DNA of 64,000 nt, taken from the NCBI GenBank assembly GCA_017408885.1, contig JAFQTT010000003.1, forward strand, positions 124,001 through 188,000. The letters run 5' to 3'. This DNA comes from Methanocorpusculum sp. Lineage in GTDB: Archaea > Halobacteriota > Methanomicrobia > Methanomicrobiales > Methanocorpusculaceae. A program made the position numbers and the translations under genes. This document shows positions 8,816 to 28,055 of this stretch, in pieces (position 1 is the first letter of the stretch; each line of letters begins with the position of its first letter). The notes beneath the pieces are model-generated. The model had not been told where the DNA came from. It saw only the letters and a list, made by a program, of their open reading frames with translations, and made no database searches.

Positions 8816-10265
8816 CGCGACATTACCTGATGCCGTGCAGTATCTGTATATCCTCCACAAAAGCGGAGCAAACCAGTATGAGGCAGTAAAATCACTCTCG
8901 GAAAATGCCGCATACTTTGGAGATGCCGCAGCAGAATTTTCCAGAGTGATTTCGGATACTGAGCTTGGAATAGGAATCCATGAAGCACTAAAACACCTCT
9001 CCTTGGATACTCCGTCAAAAAAACTCAGACGGTTTGTTGCAGGATATGCAGCATCAGTCAGGACAACAGGAGATGCAGTGCCTTATCTGGAAGACATGGT
9101 ATCATCCATGAGAGAGGAACAGCGTATTTTGCAGGAAAAGTATCTGTCGTCACTTGGTGTTTTTGCTGAAATCTATCTGACACTGTTTGTCGCAGGACCA
9201 CTTTTTGCTGTAATCGCCGGAATGGTTCTTGGAATAATCTCCTCAGCAGACACACTTGGTCTATCAGCAATCATATATGCAGTGCTTCCGCTCGGAGCTG
9301 TCGCATACCTGATTCTGCTCGACAGCATGGACAGTACTGTATCAATTCCTCACAGAAACTTTTCAGAGCCGAAGGTATTTGCCGGAAGTACCGCTGTTCA
9401 GACAGACGGTGAAGAAAATCAGTTTGCATCACTTAAAGCATATGAAAAAAGACGGATGAGAAATGAGATTTCTGAAAATCCATTCCGGTATTTCATCGAG
9501 TATCCGGAGAGGATATTCTGCATAAGTCTTCCATTAGGTATTCTATTCACCCTCCCGATTACGGAGAATCCATACCTCTGGACAGCAGTATTTCTCCTGA
9601 CAGTTTTTGTGCCGTTTGCAGTATTTTACACACTTCAGACAATACGTCAGAGAAAAGCGGAAGCCTCGGTTCCAGACTTTTGCAGGAGAACATCCGAATA
9701 CATATCTCAGGGAATGACGCTTGCTGATTCTGTGTGTCTTGCAGCAGAAAATGAAACAGGCATCCTAAAACGCGAAGTAAAAAGAGTATCTTCTGAAATA
9801 ATCTGGGGCGACACAGCAGTATCAGCACTGATTAGATTTGCAAACAGAATCAGACTTAGTTCGGTCAACCGGATGGTGATTCTGATTAAAGAAAGCGGAC
9901 GCTTTTCATCAGATGCATCAGACATGCTAAGCCTTAATGCCTCTGAGGAAAAGAAGAGATTTTTGTCAGCAGAGAACAGGAGAAACTCAATGTCGATGTA
10001 CACCGTAATTATGTATCTTGCATACTTTGTGTTTCTATTCGTAACTGTTGTGATGCTGACAGTTTTTCTTGAGGCTATGTCAGTTACTTCAGTGCCTACA
10101 GAAATCTACGAGACACTCCTTGTAAATGCAGTTTTAATTCACGGCATATGTTCAGGTCTTGCAGCAGGAAAACTCGCAGAAGAGTCTGTCTTTGCCGGAG
10201 TAAAGCATGCCTGCATTATGTTTGCAGCAGGAACAGTTGTGTTTTTAGCACTTGGAATTGTTTAG
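8793..10265 (+). CDS. Pilus/secretion membrane platform protein (TadC/GspF/ArlJ-like)
   Basis: This 490-residue integral membrane protein is the expected partner of the ATPase before it. It has two related halves: a cytoplasmic helical bundle (about residues 1-105) followed by two membrane segments near 110-175, then two more near 235-285, another cytoplasmic bundle (about 290-395), and three membrane segments to the C-terminus. This T2SSF-repeat layout is that of archaeal platform proteins. The start ATG at 8793 lies inside the ATPase gene with GGAG just before it. The gene's last four bases overlap the convergent thiL gene. Confidence 0.82.
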   Translation: MRSKRRIDATLPDAVQYLYILHKSGANQYEAVKSLSENAAYFGDAAAEFSRVISDTELGIGIHEALKHLSLDTPSKKLRRFVAGYAASVRTTGDAVPYLEDMVSSMREEQRILQEKYLSSLGVFAEIYLTLFVAGPLFAVIAGMVLGIISSADTLGLSAIIYAVLPLGAVAYLILLDSMDSTVSIPHRNFSEPKVFAGSTAVQTDGEENQFASLKAYEKRRMRNEISENPFRYFIEYPERIFCISLPLGILFTLPITENPYLWTAVFLLTVFVPFAVFYTLQTIRQRKAEASVPDFCRRTSEYISQGMTLADSVCLAAENETGILKREVKRVSSEIIWGDTAVSALIRFANRIRLSSVNRMVILIKESGRFSSDASDMLSLNASEEKKRFLSAENRRNSMSMYTVIMYLAYFVFLFVTVVMLTVFLEAMSVTSVPTEIYETLLVNAVLIHGICSGLAAGKLAEESVFAGVKHACIMFAAGTVVFLALGIV

Positions 10266-11128
10266 GCATCGCCCCATACATGGGCATAACCTTTTCGCGG
10301 AAGAATCTTTCCGTCAAGGATAACAGAGTCACCTTCAACAACACGTCCTATTACGGAGTAATCTATATCTAGTCTGGAAAGGACATCTCCAGATGCGGTA
10401 AACAGCAGACCAAAGTCTCCTCCTCCATAGAGGAAGCATGTTTTTGCATACCCGCTTTCCTCAAAGAGCGGGAATGATGTACCGTCAAGAATAATTCCAA
10501 CGGACGATGCATCAGCAATGTCATAAAGGGAGATTACAACACCGTCTGATACATCCATCATAGAAGAAGCACCCGCTTGAGCTATTTTCTGACCTTCAAA
10601 GACCTGAGGATTTGGTGTAAGCAAAAACTGCCTGAACTCATCGTGTCCGTCAAGAGCTGCCTGAGCACGTCCCGGAATTCCTGTTACACAGACAAAATCA
10701 CCAGCTAAGGCACCGCTTCTTCTGCAGTACACGGATTTGTCAACGATTCCAAATGCAGTTGTAACAGCAGTCAGTTCTTTGTGAGAATCGATATCCCCGC
10801 CTGCAACTTTGGCTCCGAATGTTTCAGCACAGGATACAGCTCCTTCCATGAACGGATAAAATCTTTCGGGACTGTCGAGACCTACAGCAACAAGAACCTG
10901 AGATGGAGCAGCACCAGTTGATGCGATGTCAGATAGAGTGACAGCAACACTCATCCAGCCCATCTCGAACTCTGTCATGCCTTTTGGGAAATCGGTTGTT
11001 TCGTGGAGCATGTCTGTACTTGCAACCAGAATTTTTCCATCCCCTAAATCAAACATTGAGCAGTCGTCTGCTGTCTCTGCCTCGCCAATCAAAGTACGTA
11101 TGCTTGCCAGAAGTTTACGATCATCCAT
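10262..11128 (-). CDS. thiL: Thiamine-monophosphate kinase ThiL
   Basis: ThiL phosphorylates thiamine monophosphate to the active cofactor thiamine diphosphate, using ATP. The 288-residue protein has the PurM/AIR-synthase-like fold signs: an N-terminal DDCSMFDLGDG acidic metal site, STDMLHETTDFP, the SDIASTGAAPSQVLVAVGL helix, and GGDIDSHKELTAVTTAFGIV. C-terminal MMDVSDGVVISLYDIA and FLYGGGDFGLLFT match the family. It is the last gene of a three-gene operon and its start overlaps the DUF460 gene by 8 bases. The product serves thiamine diphosphate enzymes such as the pyruvate oxidoreductase at 48-51 kb. Confidence 0.88.
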   Translation of the reverse strand: MDDRKLLASIRTLIGEAETADDCSMFDLGDGKILVASTDMLHETTDFPKGMTEFEMGWMSVAVTLSDIASTGAAPSQVLVAVGLDSPERFYPFMEGAVSCAETFGAKVAGGDIDSHKELTAVTTAFGIVDKSVYCRRSGALAGDFVCVTGIPGRAQAALDGHDEFRQFLLTPNPQVFEGQKIAQAGASSMMDVSDGVVISLYDIADASSVGIILDGTSFPLFEESGYAKTCFLYGGGDFGLLFTASGDVLSRLDIDYSVIGRVVEGDSVILDGKILPRKGYAHVWGDA

Positions 11129-13337
11129 TTTCGGTTTTCTCCATCTCTTTTTTGCGTTCTTTTCTGTATGCCGAAAGAACCGCGCTGAAAATATCCTCAG
11201 CCTTCGGTTCTTCCTTCTGCACAGCTTTCTTTTGTGTTTCAGGCACAGTAATCTTTTTCAAAACCGGTTTTGGCTTCGGCTTTGGAGCTTCCTGAACCGG
11301 AGGTGCCGGTTTTACCTTGGGCTTTTGAACGACTTCAGGTACGGTCTGGTTGTATGGAAGAGTTGCCGGATCGATTCCAAGAACATTTACTTCGCGGCGC
11401 CGCTGTACCTGATACTCCTCAACCATGCCGGAAAACTCTTCATGACGGCGTTCTTTTAGGAAAACTTCCTCAGCTGCATCCCACTCGGACAAAGATTTTG
11501 TAAACGCTGCTTCATTTACAACACCAATCTTGCCTTTCACACGCGGAGACAGATTCACTCCTGAGAGAGCTGGAAGATTGATACGCCTGAACTCTTCTAT
11601 TAAATGTTGTTCGCATGCTCTGTCGTAGGTGAGTTTTGGAAAAATCACTGCCTTTATTTTCGCATCTGCGAGGTCACGGATAACAGACTTTCCCCATCCG
11701 TCAATTTTTAAGACATAGAGAATATCTCCGTCATTTACTCCCATCTCCTCATCAACGCTTTTTACTGCATCACGGGATAAGAGCTGCATAACTTTTATCG
11801 CAAGACATCCATCTCCTGCCTGAAGAGCCACATAGTTTTTCATCCGGTCAAGACGAATGCGGAGATTTTTGCTCCTGCGCTCCTCTTTTCGAAGAGCTTT
11901 CTTGGTCTGGGCAAGCTCGCGGTCGCGTGAAGTAATCTCTTCAGATAAGAGAATATCAGCAGTTCTCTCATTTCTCTCAAGAGAAAGCCTTCTCTGAAGT
12001 TTTTTTACAGCCTTGTCTTTAGCCTCTAAATCTTCCGATAAACCTCGGATGAGTTTACGAAGTTTTGCAACCTCTCCTTCGAGACGGGCAATCTCCAAAT
12101 CCTTTTCATCTGCAAAAACTTCCGGCTCTGCTTCAGGCGTTTCTTCGTCAGTCCGAATAACAGGAGCAGACAGTATTTTATCCAGAGTTTTGCCGCGAAT
12201 AATTCCAGCCCTTACAAAATCAATATCAGTTCCGGCAGGCAGACGTTTTTTCAGATTCTCAAACTTAGGCTGGAAACTGCGAAACGCAAGAACGGCTGCC
12301 GCAAGAGAATCTCTCTGATGATCATCTGCAAACTCATAACCTTCTGCTGCTGCATACTTTTCTTTAATCAGGATGTCTTTTTTCGGAGTCCACGGGACAG
12401 CAGCAAAGGCACGGCGGATTTTTTCCACACCTGCCGGCATCTCAGCCTTATCCGTTGCGACAACAACAGGCTTTCCAACACGCGAAATTTCTGCGATTAC
12501 TTCCGCTGGAGACTGAGCACGGACACTTGCAGTGTGGAGAAGATTTCCGTTCAAATCAAGGATGGAAAGACCAACTGTGGTTCCAGGATCCAGACCAACA
12601 ATGACATAAGATGTTTTTTTGGTGAGCGGGAGATAGCTAATCTTATCCTTTCGTTTCGGGATGACATGAACCTGAATGTCTCCGGATTTCATTCCGGCAA
12701 CAGGAACATCCAATCTTGGAGCGCGAACTGAAATAATCGTCCGGCTTTCCCCCCCGAATGCACGTCTTGACTCAACAGTATAAGACAGACCTGATTCAGC
12801 AAGTTTTGCCTCTATTTCTCGGGCACGGGTTTTGACCCCTCCGTGAACTTTTCTAACGTACCTATTCTGACTCCATCCGCCTCGTCCAAGAGATCTGCCT
12901 CGCGAAACAGTGACAGTAGTAACCCCTTCGAATGCAACAACCTCAAACCCTCCGCCAAATGATGCAACGAGTGCTGAGGCTTTTGCTTCTTCCAAAGGAT
13001 TTGTCTTATCGAACCGAAGATTATACCGTGCGGCAACTGTCGGCAGAGAATCCATTTTGATCCCGTCACCTGTGACCTGCACGAGTTTTGTCTCCGCGGG
13101 CATTGCTGAAAGAAAAGAAAAGAGCTCTTTGTCAGACGGTGCTATTTCCTGCACAGAATCGACCGCTAAAATGTCAGGAAGCTCTGTTCGAAGCAGACGG
13201 AAGAGTTTAGGGATAGATACACCCTTCTCTTCAGAGATTACTTTGCCGTCCTCCACTCTAACAAGACAAAAGTGCGGAGCAGCACTCTGGCTTCTGATGT
13301 TTCCCTTCTGGATGTCTATACCAAAAACGGTTGTCAT
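11121..13337 (-). CDS. DUF460 protein with RNase H-like (RuvC/YqgF-type) domain
   Basis: The 738-residue protein matches the archaeal family described as a possible nuclease of RNase H fold (COG2433). It starts with TTVFGIDIQKG, and a second RNase H-like core begins VIVGLDPGTTVGLSILDLNG (about residue 245) with LVATDKAEMP-type and DDHQRDSLAAAVLAF acidic segments. A long charged coiled coil (about 420-520) follows, then another domain, then a Pro/Lys-rich tail with repeated KPKPK. The biochemical role is unknown; neighbours RIO2 and ThiL suggest an RNA or ribosome-linked housekeeping function, but that is inference. It overlaps both neighbours by a few bases. Confidence 0.82.
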   Translation of the reverse strand: MTTVFGIDIQKGNIRSQSAAPHFCLVRVEDGKVISEEKGVSIPKLFRLLRTELPDILAVDSVQEIAPSDKELFSFLSAMPAETKLVQVTGDGIKMDSLPTVAARYNLRFDKTNPLEEAKASALVASFGGGFEVVAFEGVTTVTVSRGRSLGRGGWSQNRYVRKVHGGVKTRAREIEAKLAESGLSYTVESRRAFGGESRTIISVRAPRLDVPVAGMKSGDIQVHVIPKRKDKISYLPLTKKTSYVIVGLDPGTTVGLSILDLNGNLLHTASVRAQSPAEVIAEISRVGKPVVVATDKAEMPAGVEKIRRAFAAVPWTPKKDILIKEKYAAAEGYEFADDHQRDSLAAAVLAFRSFQPKFENLKKRLPAGTDIDFVRAGIIRGKTLDKILSAPVIRTDEETPEAEPEVFADEKDLEIARLEGEVAKLRKLIRGLSEDLEAKDKAVKKLQRRLSLERNERTADILLSEEITSRDRELAQTKKALRKEERRSKNLRIRLDRMKNYVALQAGDGCLAIKVMQLLSRDAVKSVDEEMGVNDGDILYVLKIDGWGKSVIRDLADAKIKAVIFPKLTYDRACEQHLIEEFRRINLPALSGVNLSPRVKGKIGVVNEAAFTKSLSEWDAAEEVFLKERRHEEFSGMVEEYQVQRRREVNVLGIDPATLPYNQTVPEVVQKPKVKPAPPVQEAPKPKPKPVLKKITVPETQKKAVQKEEPKAEDIFSAVLSAYRKERKKEMEKTENG

Positions 13338-14194
13338 GCGGATTTGATAAACGAAATAGCTGCCTCTACATCCGGCTCAATCTGATACTTCTTGCGGAAG
13401 AACTCAGCAACCGTCTCCAAATCATGGAGAAGAGTTGCATCAGCATTTCGATGTTCAGGAGTTATCCACTGAGGCCAGTCAATAATCCAGAGAGAGTCAT
13501 CGGAGATCATGATGTTGTATTCAGATAAGTCTCCGTGGATATATCCAAGACCATATGCGATTTTAAGCTGAGCAATTATTTCATCCCATGTTGCCTGCGG
13601 GTTTTCCAGTGTACAGCGGTTGAGGTTTACTCCCGGCACAAAAGACATCACAATTGTATGGCGGTTGATATCGATTGGGACAGGAACACTTACCTTGCCG
13701 TTTAATGCCTGAAGTGCTTCAAACTCGCGCTCGGCAGATTTTGCAGATGCAAAAATCCAGGGGCAGTGACCGCCTTCCGGCATGTATTCGCGATTGGTTC
13801 TGACTGTATTAAATGAACGCTGACCAATCTTGTGGAGTTTTAACACAACAACACCGAATCCAAGTGCTTCGTAAATCTCGGATTCTTTCCCGACACCGAT
13901 GTGAGCACCAAGAGCAGTGATGCTTCCTTTGTCTGCAAGACCGGCGAGAGCTAACGCATCGTATCCTGCAAATACGAGAGCATATCCTTTGTATGGTACT
14001 GAATCTGAACGAACTAAGTCTTTGTGAATGAGATTTCCCAATCTGAATTTAAGTTCAGAATCAGATAAGTGAACTGCCGCTTTTAGGTCGTCTTCCGGAA
14101 CCCAGCGGTATCTTCTCATCATCCGCTCTAAAGCTTTGAGGATGCGGATTTCATATTTATGGAGATTTTTGATATCTTCGGCGGAGATTGTCAT
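13334..14194 (-). CDS. rio2: RIO2-type serine protein kinase
   Basis: RIO2 is an atypical kinase/ATPase needed for small-ribosomal-subunit maturation in archaea and eukaryotes. The 286-residue protein begins with the RIO2-specific winged helix (about 1-90). Then come the ATP loop GVGKESEIYEA, the catalytic loop YIHGDLSEYNIM and the metal-binding IDWPQ in place of the usual DFG. Length is typical for archaeal RIO2. It heads the operon rio2-DUF460-thiL, overlapping the next gene by four bases. No other plausible assignment. Confidence 0.93.
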   Translation of the reverse strand: MTISAEDIKNLHKYEIRILKALERMMRRYRWVPEDDLKAAVHLSDSELKFRLGNLIHKDLVRSDSVPYKGYALVFAGYDALALAGLADKGSITALGAHIGVGKESEIYEALGFGVVVLKLHKIGQRSFNTVRTNREYMPEGGHCPWIFASAKSAEREFEALQALNGKVSVPVPIDINRHTIVMSFVPGVNLNRCTLENPQATWDEIIAQLKIAYGLGYIHGDLSEYNIMISDDSLWIIDWPQWITPEHRNADATLLHDLETVAEFFRKKYQIEPDVEAAISFIKSA

Positions 14195-14250
14195 TCGTGA
14201 ATATATGTATGATTTTGAGAGATGAAAGAGCTTGCGGGAAAAAGAGGAGG

Positions 14251-22429: not shown

Positions 22430-25400
22430 TCACAAAGAAACAATCCGCAAATCCAAAGCCTCATCTGCGAAGTACAGCCATCCGGAAACAGTACCGCCTG
22501 TAATTTCGCTCATAAGACGCACATACTCAGAGACCTGCTCTAAATACCCCTCAAAGAAACCTCTCTCCTTTGCAGAAGATATGCTTCCAGTCTTGTAATC
22601 AATTACCGCATACGTACCGTCCGCATACTGAACAAAACGGTCAATCACACGCCTTTCAGTACCACAGATAACAGGAAGCTCACAGCACTCAAACACAACA
22701 TCCTGCATCAGAGAAGAGGACATAAACTCAGCATACTGCTTTTCAAACTCGGAATCATCAGATAATCCGGCGAACACCGCATGTAAACGAGTGCCTCGAA
22801 GCATTGCAAACGAAGAGCTGTCCGATTCAGAAACAATCTCCTCTTCTTTTGCATCAGGCACAACACAGACCGCATTCGAGAAGTAAGAGACCTCTTCTGC
22901 TTTTTTTGCCGGAAGACAGCACCGCCCATCACAAACATCACATTCAACAGACACTTTGCTTTTTGCTCCCTCGTACATGTTCATAAAGGATTTCTCATTA
23001 TATCCATTTTCACCGGCAGTCGCAGAAATTACAAGATGGTCGCGTGCACGCGTTAGAGCCACATAAAACAGCCGCTTTGCCTCAGCCATCTCACGATTAA
23101 CTCTATCTTCTTCAAGAGCAGTATGCAAAAGTCCGCATTTATCTTTCATCCAGGAAAGTTCAATCTTCACACCTGCACCAAGAGTATCATCGAACACAAC
23201 CCCCTTCGCATTGCCAAGAGTTTTCTCACCTGCAAAGCATAGACACACAACAGGATACTCAAGACCTTTTGACGAATGAATTGTAATAATTCTAACTCTT
23301 CCAGAGCGTTCTTCGAGAGGTTCTGCACTGCCGTCTGAAACATTCAGCTCTATACTTTTTTCAAGAAGAGACGCAAACTCGATGAGAGAGAACGGAGAAG
23401 ACACCGCTTTAGCCCGTGCGATTCCAAGAAGCTTCATCAGATTAGCTTCCATTCTGTCGCCGCCGTCAAGACCTGCATAGACAGCTAAAATCTCTGACTC
23501 TGAAACAATCTTTTCGAGAGTAAGAGTTGGTGTCATATGCTTTGCATACTCTCTCCATCTCGAAATTTTTGCAAGAGCAGAAGCTATCCTGCTGTCCTTG
23601 TTCTCTTCAGCAAAAGAACGAAGTCTTATATAAAGAGGCTTGTGTGAACCAAATGCAGCTCTCTCAAGTTCTGCTTCAGATACCGAAAGATAAGGTGAGC
23701 GAAGTGCTCCGTAAAGTGCCAGGTCATCTTCAGCATAAAGAATTGCCGAGAGCAGATTGAACAAATCTGTGACCTCAGGGCGCTGATAAAAGTTCTTTCC
23801 GCCATCTTCGATGTACGGAACGCTGTATTTGTCAAGAGCAGCACAAAGCTTTCCAAGATTAGTTCTTCTCCGGATAAGGATTGCAACATCAGAGTACTCT
23901 GCATGACGGCACACTCCGTCATCTTCACAAATCACAAGCTTGCGGTTTTCGATTTTGTCGTAAATCCATGAAGCAAGAGTTTCTGCTTCATTTTCAACAC
24001 CCTGCTCTTTGTCCTGTGGAAGGGTGATAAGTGATACAGAACCTTTCGCAGATTTACGATTGGGCAATATCAGATCATAGTCAGGATCATACTCTCCGGA
24101 AAAAATATCCTGGAAGATTTCATTTACAAAAGTGATGATCTCAGGTGCAGAGCGGAAACTCGTATCAAGTGCTGTGCGGTTTTCTCCAAAATCATCCTGA
24201 AACTCCGCGTAACCTTGCGAATCCGCTCCCCTGAAAAGATAAATTGACTGCTTGGCATCTCCAACGATAAACAGCCTGTCGTTTTTGCTGACATCGCCGC
24301 AGATTTTTCGAAGCAGACGAACTAATGCAGGATCATTATCCTGAACCTCATCGACTAAGACATAACGACATCTGGATGACACAGCATCAAGGATGTCTGG
24401 ATGGCTGTCTGATAAGAGCTCGTCTGTTCTTTGGATTATGTCATCAAAATCAAGAACTCCTACCCTCTGTTTTGCTGATGCGATTTTTTTTGCACAAACT
24501 AAGGATACATCATATAAGTCCAGGAGAACATTTCGCGTTTCTAAAAACACCTCGCTGTCCTTTCCAGGAAGATAAGGCAGAGCCTTGAAAACATTTACAA
24601 ACTCATTTGCCCTGTCCAGCTCGTCGTCTGGAATCACGAATGCTTTTTTACCGTCTACAGCTGATGTGTACTGAGCAAACAAAGACCGAATCTCTGTATG
24701 AGTTTCTGCTTTGCGCAGAGATTTTGCAAGATTAAGATACTTTGCTCTGCCGCTTTTCAGATGTTTTTCATCCGCAGTCTCTAAGCGGTTCAGCAAAGAA
24801 CGGTTTGTCGAATCCTCAAAGAACATCTCGCGAAGAGCGAAGAGATAATCTTGCTCAGATACATCCTCAAAGAGTTTTGAGAAGTCCTCTCCGATTTTGA
24901 AATGCTCTGTAAATCCGGAATACCAAATCCTTCGAACAGTTTCCGGTTCATTCCTGAGAAGTTCAAACCATCTGTTGTCACCGTTTTCAATGATGAGTTT
25001 TACATAACTGCGAATAGTTTTCTGATGCATTCTAAGATGCAGACGGACAAGAGCATCGAATAGATTTTCATCAGGGTTTTCGATTACATCATGGATTGTG
25101 TCTTCAACAAGCTCTGTCTTGTCAAGATCATCCATGACAGCAAATCCTGGCTCAAGGCCTGCCTCGTATGCAAACTCCTTGAGAATCGAAAGACAGAATC
25201 CATGAAATGTACTAATCGAGGCCTGATGGAATGAATCAAGACATTCCTGCATGCGGGGGCTCGTCTTTGCCTGTTTTTTCAGCTCATGCGAGATTTTAGT
25301 CTGCATCTCAGAGGCTGCCTTTTCTGTGTATGTTAAAGCAACAATGTCTTTTGGATATGCTCCGGATTCAAGAAGCGATATGTACCTTTGAGTTAAGAGG

Positions 25401-25489
25401 AAGGTCTTTCCAGTACCAGCTCCCGCCGTAACACTGGTGCTTTTTCCAAGTTCGAGAGCTTTTTTCTGGGCAGGGGTATAATCAGTCAT
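22430..25489 (-). CDS. addA: UvrD/Rep-family helicase-nuclease, AddA-like
   Basis: The 1,019-residue protein is a superfamily 1A helicase with a C-terminal RecB-like nuclease. Motifs in order: Walker A AGAGTGKTFLLTQRY (about residue 20), motif II LVDEVQDNDPALVRLL, motif III GDAKQSIYLFRGAD, motif IV-V TIHSSKGLEYPVVCLCF, motif VI FYVALTRARDHLVIS. Nuclease residues are GTRLHAVF and VIDYKTGS (about 963-970) with a following QVSEY. This matches AddA (RexA) of bacterial double-strand-break processing machines. The start overlaps the AddB-like gene by 8 bases. Archaea usually use HerA-NurA-Mre11-Rad50, so bacterial origin by transfer is plausible. The archaeal gene's biological role is inferred only. 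Confidence 0.83.
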   Translation of the reverse strand: MTDYTPAQKKALELGKSTSVTAGAGTGKTFLLTQRYISLLESGAYPKDIVALTYTEKAASEMQTKISHELKKQAKTSPRMQECLDSFHQASISTFHGFCLSILKEFAYEAGLEPGFAVMDDLDKTELVEDTIHDVIENPDENLFDALVRLHLRMHQKTIRSYVKLIIENGDNRWFELLRNEPETVRRIWYSGFTEHFKIGEDFSKLFEDVSEQDYLFALREMFFEDSTNRSLLNRLETADEKHLKSGRAKYLNLAKSLRKAETHTEIRSLFAQYTSAVDGKKAFVIPDDELDRANEFVNVFKALPYLPGKDSEVFLETRNVLLDLYDVSLVCAKKIASAKQRVGVLDFDDIIQRTDELLSDSHPDILDAVSSRCRYVLVDEVQDNDPALVRLLRKICGDVSKNDRLFIVGDAKQSIYLFRGADSQGYAEFQDDFGENRTALDTSFRSAPEIITFVNEIFQDIFSGEYDPDYDLILPNRKSAKGSVSLITLPQDKEQGVENEAETLASWIYDKIENRKLVICEDDGVCRHAEYSDVAILIRRRTNLGKLCAALDKYSVPYIEDGGKNFYQRPEVTDLFNLLSAILYAEDDLALYGALRSPYLSVSEAELERAAFGSHKPLYIRLRSFAEENKDSRIASALAKISRWREYAKHMTPTLTLEKIVSESEILAVYAGLDGGDRMEANLMKLLGIARAKAVSSPFSLIEFASLLEKSIELNVSDGSAEPLEERSGRVRIITIHSSKGLEYPVVCLCFAGEKTLGNAKGVVFDDTLGAGVKIELSWMKDKCGLLHTALEEDRVNREMAEAKRLFYVALTRARDHLVISATAGENGYNEKSFMNMYEGAKSKVSVECDVCDGRCCLPAKKAEEVSYFSNAVCVVPDAKEEEIVSESDSSSFAMLRGTRLHAVFAGLSDDSEFEKQYAEFMSSSLMQDVVFECCELPVICGTERRVIDRFVQYADGTYAVIDYKTGSISSAKERGFFEGYLEQVSEYVRLMSEITGGTVSGWLYFADEALDLRIVSL

Positions 25490-28055
25490 CGCTTAATACC
25501 TCCTCTTTTCGGCAGATATGCTTATACGGACAGAAATCCGGACACTTATCACCATGTCCAATCTTTCCTGCTTTAACAAGTTCGATGATTTCTGCAATAT
25601 GTTTCTTTGTATCAGAAATCATACTATCAGCACCATTCTTAAATGGTGTACTTAGTTTTGCAGTATCAGATGTTATATTTACAAAATTTCCAACAGAAGG
25701 AGTCCCGCCTGTCATCTGACGAACAGCTTCAGAGTAGATTGGAATCTGCAGAGATTTTTTTGGATTGGTTTCTACCTTGTTTCCTGTCTTGTAATCCAAA
25801 ACCATAAATGAACCGTTTTCCTTCATGATAACGCGGTCAGCACGACCAGAAACCTTAATCCCGTCAAAATCTGCTTCTACTTCACGTTCAAGCCATGAGG
25901 AGTCGGTACGATATCCTTCTTTTGCAAATCCTGTTTCAATCCCGATTAACTTTTTCAATGAACTGTCTTTTGCTGCGCATCCGAGATATCCAAGCTCTTT
26001 TGCTTTCCATGACGGAGTTTTAATACCGGTTTTTTCCATTTCTTCGACAGTCAGGCGGCAGAGCTCTTCGTATGCCAAATCAGCGGTCTCTTCTGTGATA
26101 CAGTCATGAACCGAGAAATACCGCTCTAAAACCTTGTGAATCACATTTCCGATTTTTATCGGCTCAGAACTGAAATCAGACGGATTCTCAAGAGACAAGT
26201 GGTGTCTGATGTACCATGAGAAGGGACAGTTGGCATATGTTTCCAGAAACGAAGGTGAGAATGATTTCTTTTCGGAATAGATTTCCAAAAATCTACCCTC
26301 CTCAAATGACGGAGCTTTGTTTACAGAACTTATTCTGTATGCAGTATCATTAATGTCCAAAACTCCAAAGGCTTCGTCAATCTCTTTTCTCTCTGCAACG
26401 CATCTTCCAGCACTCTTCTGACATCCGAAAACCGAGTGAACTGGATTTTTACAGTCAGTTTTATTCGGTTCCCCAATACGTGTTAGAAGAGGAGACGGGG
26501 CAAAACTTGTCCCTCCGTCTGATTTGGCATAAGAAAGTGTGAGCTTCCTTGATGCCGATGCACATGCTGCTTCAAAGTAGTATGCAGTATCTTCAGCAGA
26601 CTTTTTGTATCTGTTTGGAAGAAGGGCTTTTGTCTCCTGCACTGTCAAAAGAGGAAGTGTTGCAGAGATGTTTGGGATACTCTTAGACGAAAGTCCGATT
26701 ATAAAGACGTACGGAGTTTTTGTACCTGCGGCACTTCTAAGTTTTCCAACGCGAAATGCAGTCTCGTTTTCAGGATATGGAATCCCTGCATTCTTTCTGC
26801 ATCCGCGTGAAAGAATCGCATAAAAATCCTGAATACTACAGGGTGCATGCGATGTTCCGGCAGCAAAGAGGCGGTCAAGCAGACTGAAAAATGCATTTCG
26901 TGCTGCATCCTCTGTTTTTGTCATAGGAGACGTTGTCCATCCAAGGTCACCTAAGTCATCGAGAAGTGCAGATATTCTATCCTGCATAGTCCGCGCACTC
27001 TTCTGCCTTTCCTCTGCTTTATTCAGTATATCACATAGAACTGTTTTCAGTGTTTCATCTTCTTCCGTCCCAATGTTTCTCCAGTCTAAACTGCCTGTCA
27101 TTTTGACTGCACGATGAAGAGTTCCGGCAGTAACACCTCTGCGTTTTATATTAAATGCTCTGCACTCAAGAATTGATGCGAGGTCTGTTTCCTTTGGATT
27201 ATAAGAAGATGAGACAAATGCCAGAACAGCACGAATTACAGGTATGTTCTGTATGCTTTTTCGCTCGGACGTTTTAAATGTCAGAGGTGTTTTGCGATTT
27301 ACAAAAAAACCTGCGGCAATTTCTTCTAATATAGGAAGAGTTGTCTGAAGAGTTGGGGTAAGCAGAAGAATGTCATCTCCCAATACTCCGCTTTCTTCAA
27401 GAGAACATATCGCATCAAGTGTCTGTGATATCTCTTCGCGGGTGTTTCCATACTCAAAAATTTCAACATCAGATAATGGAGGAATTTCTGCATCAAAAAT
27501 AATTGGTTCGCTTGAGAAAACACCAAGGAGATTTTCTGCAAGAGGTGTTGTACTTTTTAAGCCGAAGCAGATACAGCATGCAGGCTTCATCTGTTCTGCA
27601 AACGGGATTGCATACCAAATAGCAGATATGGCATCTGATGCATTATGCTCTGCACACCACATGCGGTACTTCGAAAAAACTTCAGAAGCCTTTTTTCCCT
27701 TCTCAGTGTCCAACGGGCAGTCTGTGTTATTCAAAGTTAAGGTGATGTATAGGTCGATTAAGTTCTCAATTATAGATTTTGATGACGGAAATATACCTTT
27801 AGCAAATGATGAGAAGAGGAGATACTGTTCCTCCGGCGGAATTATTCTGATTCCAGCTTTTTGTTCTTCGAGAATAGTATGGGCAAGTGATTTTATTGTT
27901 GTAATTCTGGTTTGAAGAACAGGAGTGCTGATGAGCTCGAAAGCGCGGCGTCGTACGTCTTCATTTTCAACAATCAACCATGTGTCAAACGGGTTGGTTT
28001 TTGAGTTCAAAGAGAAGAGAGAACATGCTGTTTCAAGGGAGGAGGTATCGTTCAT
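25482..28055 (-). CDS. addB: AddB-like PD-(D/E)XK nuclease with iron-sulfur staple
   Basis: The 857-residue protein is the likely partner of AddA. Its C-terminal third carries a RecB nuclease core (GNVIHKVLERYF, MVLDYKTGNK, QIPIYSEAV) framed by the AddB iron-sulfur cysteines: one in YANCPFSWYIRHH (about residue 612) and three in CPDFCPYKHIC near the C-terminus. The N-terminal helicase-like region has no Walker A GKT, so, as in many AddB proteins, it would not hydrolyse ATP; its inactive helicase fold may scan DNA. It is shorter than bacterial AddB (~1,150). First gene of the addB-addA pair. Confidence 0.78.
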   Translation of the reverse strand: MNDTSSLETACSLFSLNSKTNPFDTWLIVENEDVRRRAFELISTPVLQTRITTIKSLAHTILEEQKAGIRIIPPEEQYLLFSSFAKGIFPSSKSIIENLIDLYITLTLNNTDCPLDTEKGKKASEVFSKYRMWCAEHNASDAISAIWYAIPFAEQMKPACCICFGLKSTTPLAENLLGVFSSEPIIFDAEIPPLSDVEIFEYGNTREEISQTLDAICSLEESGVLGDDILLLTPTLQTTLPILEEIAAGFFVNRKTPLTFKTSERKSIQNIPVIRAVLAFVSSSYNPKETDLASILECRAFNIKRRGVTAGTLHRAVKMTGSLDWRNIGTEEDETLKTVLCDILNKAEERQKSARTMQDRISALLDDLGDLGWTTSPMTKTEDAARNAFFSLLDRLFAAGTSHAPCSIQDFYAILSRGCRKNAGIPYPENETAFRVGKLRSAAGTKTPYVFIIGLSSKSIPNISATLPLLTVQETKALLPNRYKKSAEDTAYYFEAACASASRKLTLSYAKSDGGTSFAPSPLLTRIGEPNKTDCKNPVHSVFGCQKSAGRCVAERKEIDEAFGVLDINDTAYRISSVNKAPSFEEGRFLEIYSEKKSFSPSFLETYANCPFSWYIRHHLSLENPSDFSSEPIKIGNVIHKVLERYFSVHDCITEETADLAYEELCRLTVEEMEKTGIKTPSWKAKELGYLGCAAKDSSLKKLIGIETGFAKEGYRTDSSWLEREVEADFDGIKVSGRADRVIMKENGSFMVLDYKTGNKVETNPKKSLQIPIYSEAVRQMTGGTPSVGNFVNITSDTAKLSTPFKNGADSMISDTKKHIAEIIELVKAGKIGHGDKCPDFCPYKHICRKEEVLSDD

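Follow-up and report, generated by a model that had tools for sequence, protein, structure and literature searches.

A putative AddAB helicase-nuclease in Methanocorpusculum and in situ replacement of the mre11-rad50-nurA-herA operon in a family of Methanomicrobiales

Bacterial AddAB (RexAB) enzymes are encoded by adjacent addB and addA genes, with AddA joining an SF1A helicase to a nuclease and AddB carrying a nuclease and a four-cysteine iron-sulfur (Fe-S) module on an inactive helicase-like scaffold. Work by Cromie in 2009 reportedly uncovered unexpected addAB genes in archaea, noted that addAB has taken the place of recBCD in bacteria, and described a Walker A motif and an Fe-S motif as present in some AddB proteins and not in others. 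AdnAB enzymes possess a complete helicase ATP site in both subunits. Another kind of helicase-nuclease, a UvrD-Cas4 fusion, occurs in mesophilic archaea (PMC5704561); it also joins an SF1 helicase to a PD-(D/E)XK nuclease, but as one polypeptide without an AddB partner. The archaeal Mre11-Rad50-NurA-HerA proteins are thought to turn broken ends into 3′ tails for RadA, and the same source calls Mre11-Rad50 universally conserved and assigns end resection in archaea to the HerA-NurA pair (PMC7690668). On the line leading to the haloarchaea, nurA was lost and herA and mre11 were exchanged for other gene families (PMC7599335), a turnover of operon genes similar to that reported below, although the available portion of that article mentions neither AddAB nor an exchange at one locus. 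H. volcanii is said in a review to be without HerA and NurA (PMC7776575); contrary to this, the Pfam NurA model matches our H. volcanii control genome.

The window considered here is the whole stretch of 64,000 nucleotides that was analysed (G000:C3:124001-188000), taken from a Methanocorpusculum genome of 1.55 Mb that is 90.5% complete. G numbers denote the compared genomes (G000 being the window genome), g1 denotes Methanocorpusculum, and f2 to f6 denote families of the Methanomicrobiales. The window contains an addB-like and an addA-like gene (Table 1), the overlap of which makes their co-translation probable. First-pass annotation had read these genes as an AddAB-like pair in which both subunits have intact nuclease residues and AddB keeps four Fe-S cysteines, and the domains, motifs, fold matches and exact coordinates all bear this out. 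The AddA protein matches UvrD_N (8.8e-59) and UvrD_C (1.9e-31), and its best solved relative is B. subtilis AddA (7.6e-54 across residues 12-823). Its helicase motifs are intact (motif I at K28-T29, DEVQD at 380, GDAKQSIY at 410 and SKGLE at 740), as are the residues of its C-terminal nuclease (H903, D950, D964-Y965-K966 and Y989). The AddB protein matches PDDEXK_1 (1.7e-31), with nuclease residues H640, D740, D754-Y755-K756, Q770 and Y774 and Fe-S cysteines C610, C838, C842 and C848 in place; the three-cysteine C-terminal pattern recurs in 40 of 43 Methanomicrobiales AddB sequences. An AlphaFold model of AddB is of moderate quality (mean pLDDT 70.8, pTM 0.54), and B. subtilis AddB chains are its top PDB fold matches, with an E-value of 8.7e-26 and a TM-score of just 0.45.

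Table 1. Coordinates of the addBA pair in the window and of genes adjoining addBA in f6 loci
Feature	Position	Strand	Description
addB-like subunit AddB	25482..28055	(-)	857 aa; helicase-like scaffold without Walker A, C-terminal PD-(D/E)XK nuclease, four Fe-S cysteines
addA-like subunit AddA	22430..25489	(-)	1019 aa; SF1A (UvrD/Rep type) helicase, C-terminal PD-(D/E)XK nuclease
Region shared by the addB 3′ end and the addA 5′ end	25482..25489	(-)	8 nt
Upstream coiled-coil-like ORF, five f6 loci	L119:7464-8849; L115:4359-5870; L110:8871-10394; L111:9339-10829; L114:13129-14607		
SbcCD-/SMC-like genes at addBA, f6 loci	L120:2679-14195; L112:3-8291; L118:7428-18442		

Its sequence places the enzyme on an archaeal branch of the AddAB family. 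It displays the broad family features, namely adjacent genes, an AddA with helicase motifs and a nuclease, and an AddB with scaffold, nuclease and Fe-S module (the fold match being at the TM-score given above). It differs from the bacterial enzymes in having an AddB shorter (Table 1) than the 1166 aa of the B. subtilis entry and in belonging to an archaeal clade, and it falls far under the cut-offs of the NCBIfam Gram-positive equivalogs TIGR02785 and TIGR02773 (AddA, 302 versus 708 bits; AddB, 54 versus 904 bits). No Walker A motif occurs in the window AddB or in the AddB of the 43 Methanomicrobiales, five haloarchaeal and one Thermoplasmata rows tested, and it is also absent from 33 of 52 bacterial AddB sequences. 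An AdnAB identity was ruled out by this missing motif and by the ranking of AdnAB chains below AddB in the fold search, and a UvrD-Cas4 fusion by the encoding of helicase and AddB partner as two overlapping genes. Several relatives do have a group of single-gene helicase-nucleases of about 1000 aa, scoring about 235 bits with the AddA profile, that would belong to the UvrD-Cas4 family. In a phage collection, the 20 AddB matches listed, out of 232, are partial; they span less than half of the protein, and most are annotated as exonuclease or Cas4 exonuclease. The search for an over-represented Chi-like octamer that had been proposed for this locus came up empty: there was no clear outlier in 363 kb of contig C3 (top z 4.8), which is a weak test on a single contig without a known origin or terminus.

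The pair is widespread in the order. AddB matches, with weaker nuclease-domain matches counted in, occur in 107 of 150 genomes of Methanomicrobiales, and the best AddA piece reaches at least 389 bits in 82 of the 150, clearly set off from the 235-bit group (later counts exclude the partial cases G118, G131 and G135). Methanocorpusculum reaches this score in 22 of 25 genomes. Of 276 genomes sampled from the phylum outside the order, 12 have a full AddA (at least 800 bits). With the ORF picker, addB and addA lie side by side on one strand at 37 of 38 order loci (L033-L070), and at the one exception (L055 in G120) the genome search still places AddA beside AddB; since the adjacent pair recurs throughout the order, the arrangement in the window is more than chance. 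Whether relatives carry the pair in the same place has a divided answer. The tested window neighbours stand beside addAB elsewhere only in the closest relative, G102. Genes found near addAB in G114, G141 and G042 have homologues about 8-12 kb away from the pair in the window genome (at window 10262-14230; probably DUF460, RIO-kinase and AIR-synthase-like genes, by an inferred assignment), so that the region, unlike the immediate neighbours, is roughly shared.

Three f5 genomes that keep NurA match the C-terminal nuclease part of AddA only (G072:C3:48952-50088, G063:C35:29015-29689 and G096:C1:1679508-1680182), and in G072 the middle part of AddB lies with the AddA nuclease part in the same 819-aa frame. 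These pieces are possible remnants of an AddBA deletion, i.e., of loss in the other direction.

The first-pass annotation had suggested a transfer from bacteria, with placement of both proteins in an old archaeal clade as the outcome that would speak against it. The trees come largely to that outcome. The FastTree of AddA (135 rows) recovers the 43 Methanomicrobiales as a single clade (98), itself placed within an archaeal group (91); in a mixture-model tree of 50 rows, the 14 Methanomicrobiales again fall together (94) and are joined to one Thermoplasmata row (97). A 101-row AddB tree, built on a faster alignment, likewise gives one clade for the 43 Methanomicrobiales (94). The deep branching is less firm, with the haloarchaea unresolved in the mixture-model AddA tree and a proteobacterial group falling between them and the other archaea (support 39); unity of all archaeal AddA, as in the FastTree, is therefore not claimed, and because of this deep uncertainty an older bacterial origin of the Methanomicrobiales clade as a whole is possible. 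Recent acquisition of addAB from a bacterial donor is another matter. It would suit a system otherwise best known from bacteria, as well as the addBA-like pairs on bacterial plasmids and the bacterial-flavoured SbcD-SbcC-AddB-AddA arrays in f6 (L120). The window AddA and AddB are nested within Methanomicrobiales clades that have family-level structure, though, and for this reason the sequences lend no support to such an import; moreover, the nearest bacterial AddA among the matches listed shares only 28-31% identity in its best segments. Recent transfer is accordingly rated very improbable, with the caveat that, as the bacterial rows are the best 80 loci among the pattern-scan matches listed plus plasmid records, the nearest bacterial relative may be missing from the trees.

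Set against the archaeal machinery, the same annotation had contrasted the pair with HerA-NurA and Mre11-Rad50, and this proved to be the right lead, as those genes went undetected in all 25 Methanocorpusculum genomes. Profiles were derived from 20 NurA-chosen loci of the relatives' operon (mre11, rad50, nurA and herA), where the ORF picker yielded HerA and Rad50 at 20 of 20, Mre11 at 15 and NurA at 13 plus two of a divergent type, the remaining Mre11 and NurA genes being masked by longer opposite-strand ORFs. These profiles and the Pfam NurA model were searched against the same 150 genomes of the order. Within Methanocorpusculum, NurA was found in none of the 25 genomes (profile and Pfam, E up to 0.001), HerA in none (profile, E up to 1e-10), and canonical Mre11-Rad50 in none, with weak SbcCD-like matches in some. 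SbcD exceeds its cut-off in 11 of the 25 and gives any match in 12, with no match in G000 or in the single-contig genomes G042 and G054. In these three genomes AddAB is the sole end-processing complex detected among those searched for.

The window pair is thus likely to be a housekeeping AddAB helicase-nuclease that took over the processing of double-strand-break ends in Methanocorpusculum. By homology, AddA would be the single 3′-5′ motor, the AddA and AddB nucleases would cut the two strands, and the Fe-S module of AddB would hold the nuclease on its scaffold. The enzyme would load on a broken end and produce a 3′ tail to be used by RadA, the archaeal recombinase.

An alternative is that AddAB serves mainly in antiviral or anti-plasmid defence, is exchanged within defence islands, and plays a secondary role in repair. 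Six of ten chosen proteins beside the f6 exchange site match PADLOC defence models, including RT_UG5-nitrilase (G035), a defence-type HerA (G064), PDC-M68A/B (G140), and Gabija A and B in the operon-bearing G085, and plasmid addBA pairs lie near BREX genes on a Haladaptatus plasmid (L078) and a Deinococcus plasmid (L083). The window neighbours themselves are NUDIX-, YgiQ-, transporter- and BadF/HgdB-like, with no evident defence gene by eye. PADLOC tallies covering 88 of 134 listed neighbour proteins near addBA (24 loci) and 82 of 112 near the operon (19 loci) consist in both cases mostly of families with a single matching protein, and SspA matched four near the operon (among the first 25 families in each tally, of 68 and 104). 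As the tallies yield no enrichment figure and nothing evidently defensive stands out at the window locus, a defence hotspot as the place of exchange is a lead and not a result.

Rapid divergence could also be taken as a sign of defence. The AddA and AddB proteins of G000 are about 52-61% identical to those of G114 and G094, while EF-2 is more than 99% identical; the ratios of AddA and AddB to EF-2 divergence within the genus look extreme, with medians of 9.4 and 11.0, but in the subclade of the window EF-2 hardly varies. Against G114, AddA and AddB differ by about 38-40%, while three of five addAB neighbours are 80-92% identical (8-20% different), an excess of about 2-5 fold. The other two neighbours match at only 57% and 37%, however, so AddAB is not alone in its divergence. 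Of the two roles first suggested for the pair, repair is favoured, since AddAB is the only resection complex detected in the genus and a housekeeping function is thereby the better fit; a part in defence is possible, and defence as the main role is unlikely.

Comparison across the order shows how AddAB and NurA are distributed relative to each other. Among the 108 genomes of at least 90% completeness, 26 contain both AddA and NurA, 36 AddA only, 43 NurA only, and three neither (G069, G117 and G119), giving a Fisher p of 1.4e-8 without kinship correction; the NurA of G064, present as fragments only, was scored absent, and the divergent Pfam-detected NurA of G014 and G139 present. AddAB is found in 36 of the 39 such genomes without an intact NurA. 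No genome of f6 has both (12 AddA only, 19 NurA only and two neither), and the same is true of f2 (12, four and one), while no AddA-only genome of the set belongs to f3, f4 or f5. HerA of at least 800 bits occurs in none of the AddA-only genomes of the set; a HerA-like gene of 502-598 bits is kept in G047, G053 and G149, and a divergent Mre11-Rad50-like pair is retained elsewhere in the genome of G140. Kinship was corrected for on an EF-2 tree of 100 genomes, i.e., a single-gene species tree from a short tree search. Here, NurA changed in the opposite direction in about 9.3 of 18 independent AddA contrasts, in the same direction in none, and not at all in 8.7 (p about 0.004). With f6 alone, 7.8 of eight independent contrasts were opposite (p about 0.008), while outside f6 the association was not significant (10 contrasts, 1.9 opposite and 8.1 with no difference). 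Mutual exclusion of AddAB and NurA is demonstrated in f6, and is taken as shown in that family only because the corrected contrasts are significant there and not elsewhere. In g1 and f2, exclusion fits the pattern and rests on few events.

Of course, the two systems can also live together. They coexist in several genera and in haloarchaea, and NurA is present in all 12 full-AddA genomes outside the order; given these genomes and the 26 with both in the order, AddAB does not force loss of the operon. Nor is a rule of AddAB for NurA phylum-wide, since PF09376, a Pfam model that misses some true NurA (e.g., in G021), went undetected in 97 of 276 genomes outside the order, none of which has a full AddA. 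These observations, the lack of significance outside f6 after correction, and the f6 genomes G069 and G117, which are without NurA although they are without AddAB, would suit a phylogenetic coincidence in which the few losses of the operon had nothing to do with AddAB. The eight f6 contrasts run one way, however, and in seven of 12 genomes addBA occupies the operon's own site or lies close to it, with remnants nearby in five, which makes coincidence quite improbable. As a separate observation, a HerA-like gene of G069 is next to one for a 1271-aa protein (L328; G069:C1:1556000-1575000).

The positional evidence comes from a comparison of the 12 AddAB-bearing f6 genomes (14 loci) with nine operon loci, ten of these loci also by DNA alignment. 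The operon proteins are unrelated to AddAB, yet their genes occupy the corresponding locus in f6 relatives: in G140, G129, G011, G133, G035, G105 and G059, operon-flanking genes of a relative lie within 7 kb of addBA, one operon flank being matched per genome. For instance, G140 and G085 share a 3.84-kb flank at 95.1% DNA identity that stops about 110 bp before the end of herA, beyond which G140 has addBA and G085 the operon. Elsewhere, the flank match ends about 40 bp (G011/G143), 31 bp (G133/G143) or 165 bp (G059/G125, at 69% identity) from the operon, and 323 bp (G035) or 351 bp (G129) from that of G023; in G105 compared with G089, it starts 70 bp outside the operon on the Mre11 side. Fragments of the operon are left in five of the 12 genomes. 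These comprise HerA C-termini in G035 (61 aa, 77%), G105 (53 aa, 92%) and G133 (51 aa, 78%), a Rad50 C-terminus in G059 (110 aa, 91%), and NurA pieces (76% and 65%) with a Rad50 end (30 aa, 77%) in G064. Because these fragments remain in AddAB genomes, the direction was from operon to AddAB. Flank, fragments or both are seen in eight of the 12, and no operon trace was found near addBA in G113, G053, G047 and G149, with G113 sharing only a more distant neighbour. In several f6 species, then, addBA replaced the mre11-rad50-nurA-herA operon in situ. A likely history is that an old archaeal AddAB coexisted with the operon in some lineages and that one or the other was then lost, in f6 by exchange at the same locus.

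A broader reading, to which we incline by a modest degree, is that AddAB and the mre11-rad50-nurA-herA operon are interchangeable one-site modules, repeatedly swapped in Methanomicrobiales (in f6 at a defence-collecting spot), with Methanocorpusculum as an end state dependent on AddAB alone, where Mre11-Rad50, HerA-NurA and SbcCD go undetected. If true, this would be an exception to Mre11-Rad50 as a universally conserved complex. The natural replacement of a whole operon by AddAB also suggests that both machines can do the same job. Close relatives with either machine at the same locus would allow tests of what else, apart from end resection, Mre11-Rad50 and HerA-NurA do in archaea, and of the ability of an AddAB enzyme to supply a RadA recombinase. 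Archaeal addAB genes were already known, and the replacement of the operon appears to be new: to our knowledge, Cromie's work did not include displacement of the archaeal operon by AddAB, and no report of it appeared in PubMed Central titles and abstract starts, a scope that leaves out most subscription journals.

Other genes adjoin addBA in f6 (Table 1). A coiled-coil-looking protein of 461-507 aa with a shared N-terminus is encoded directly upstream of addB at five loci; it matched no Pfam family over the cut-off in the three proteins scanned, and is a candidate third component. In addition, SbcD-SbcC-like genes adjoin addB-addA in G053, as one array, and in G113, in divergent orientation; in G105, the genes beside addBA encode an SMC-like ATPase and a metallophosphatase.
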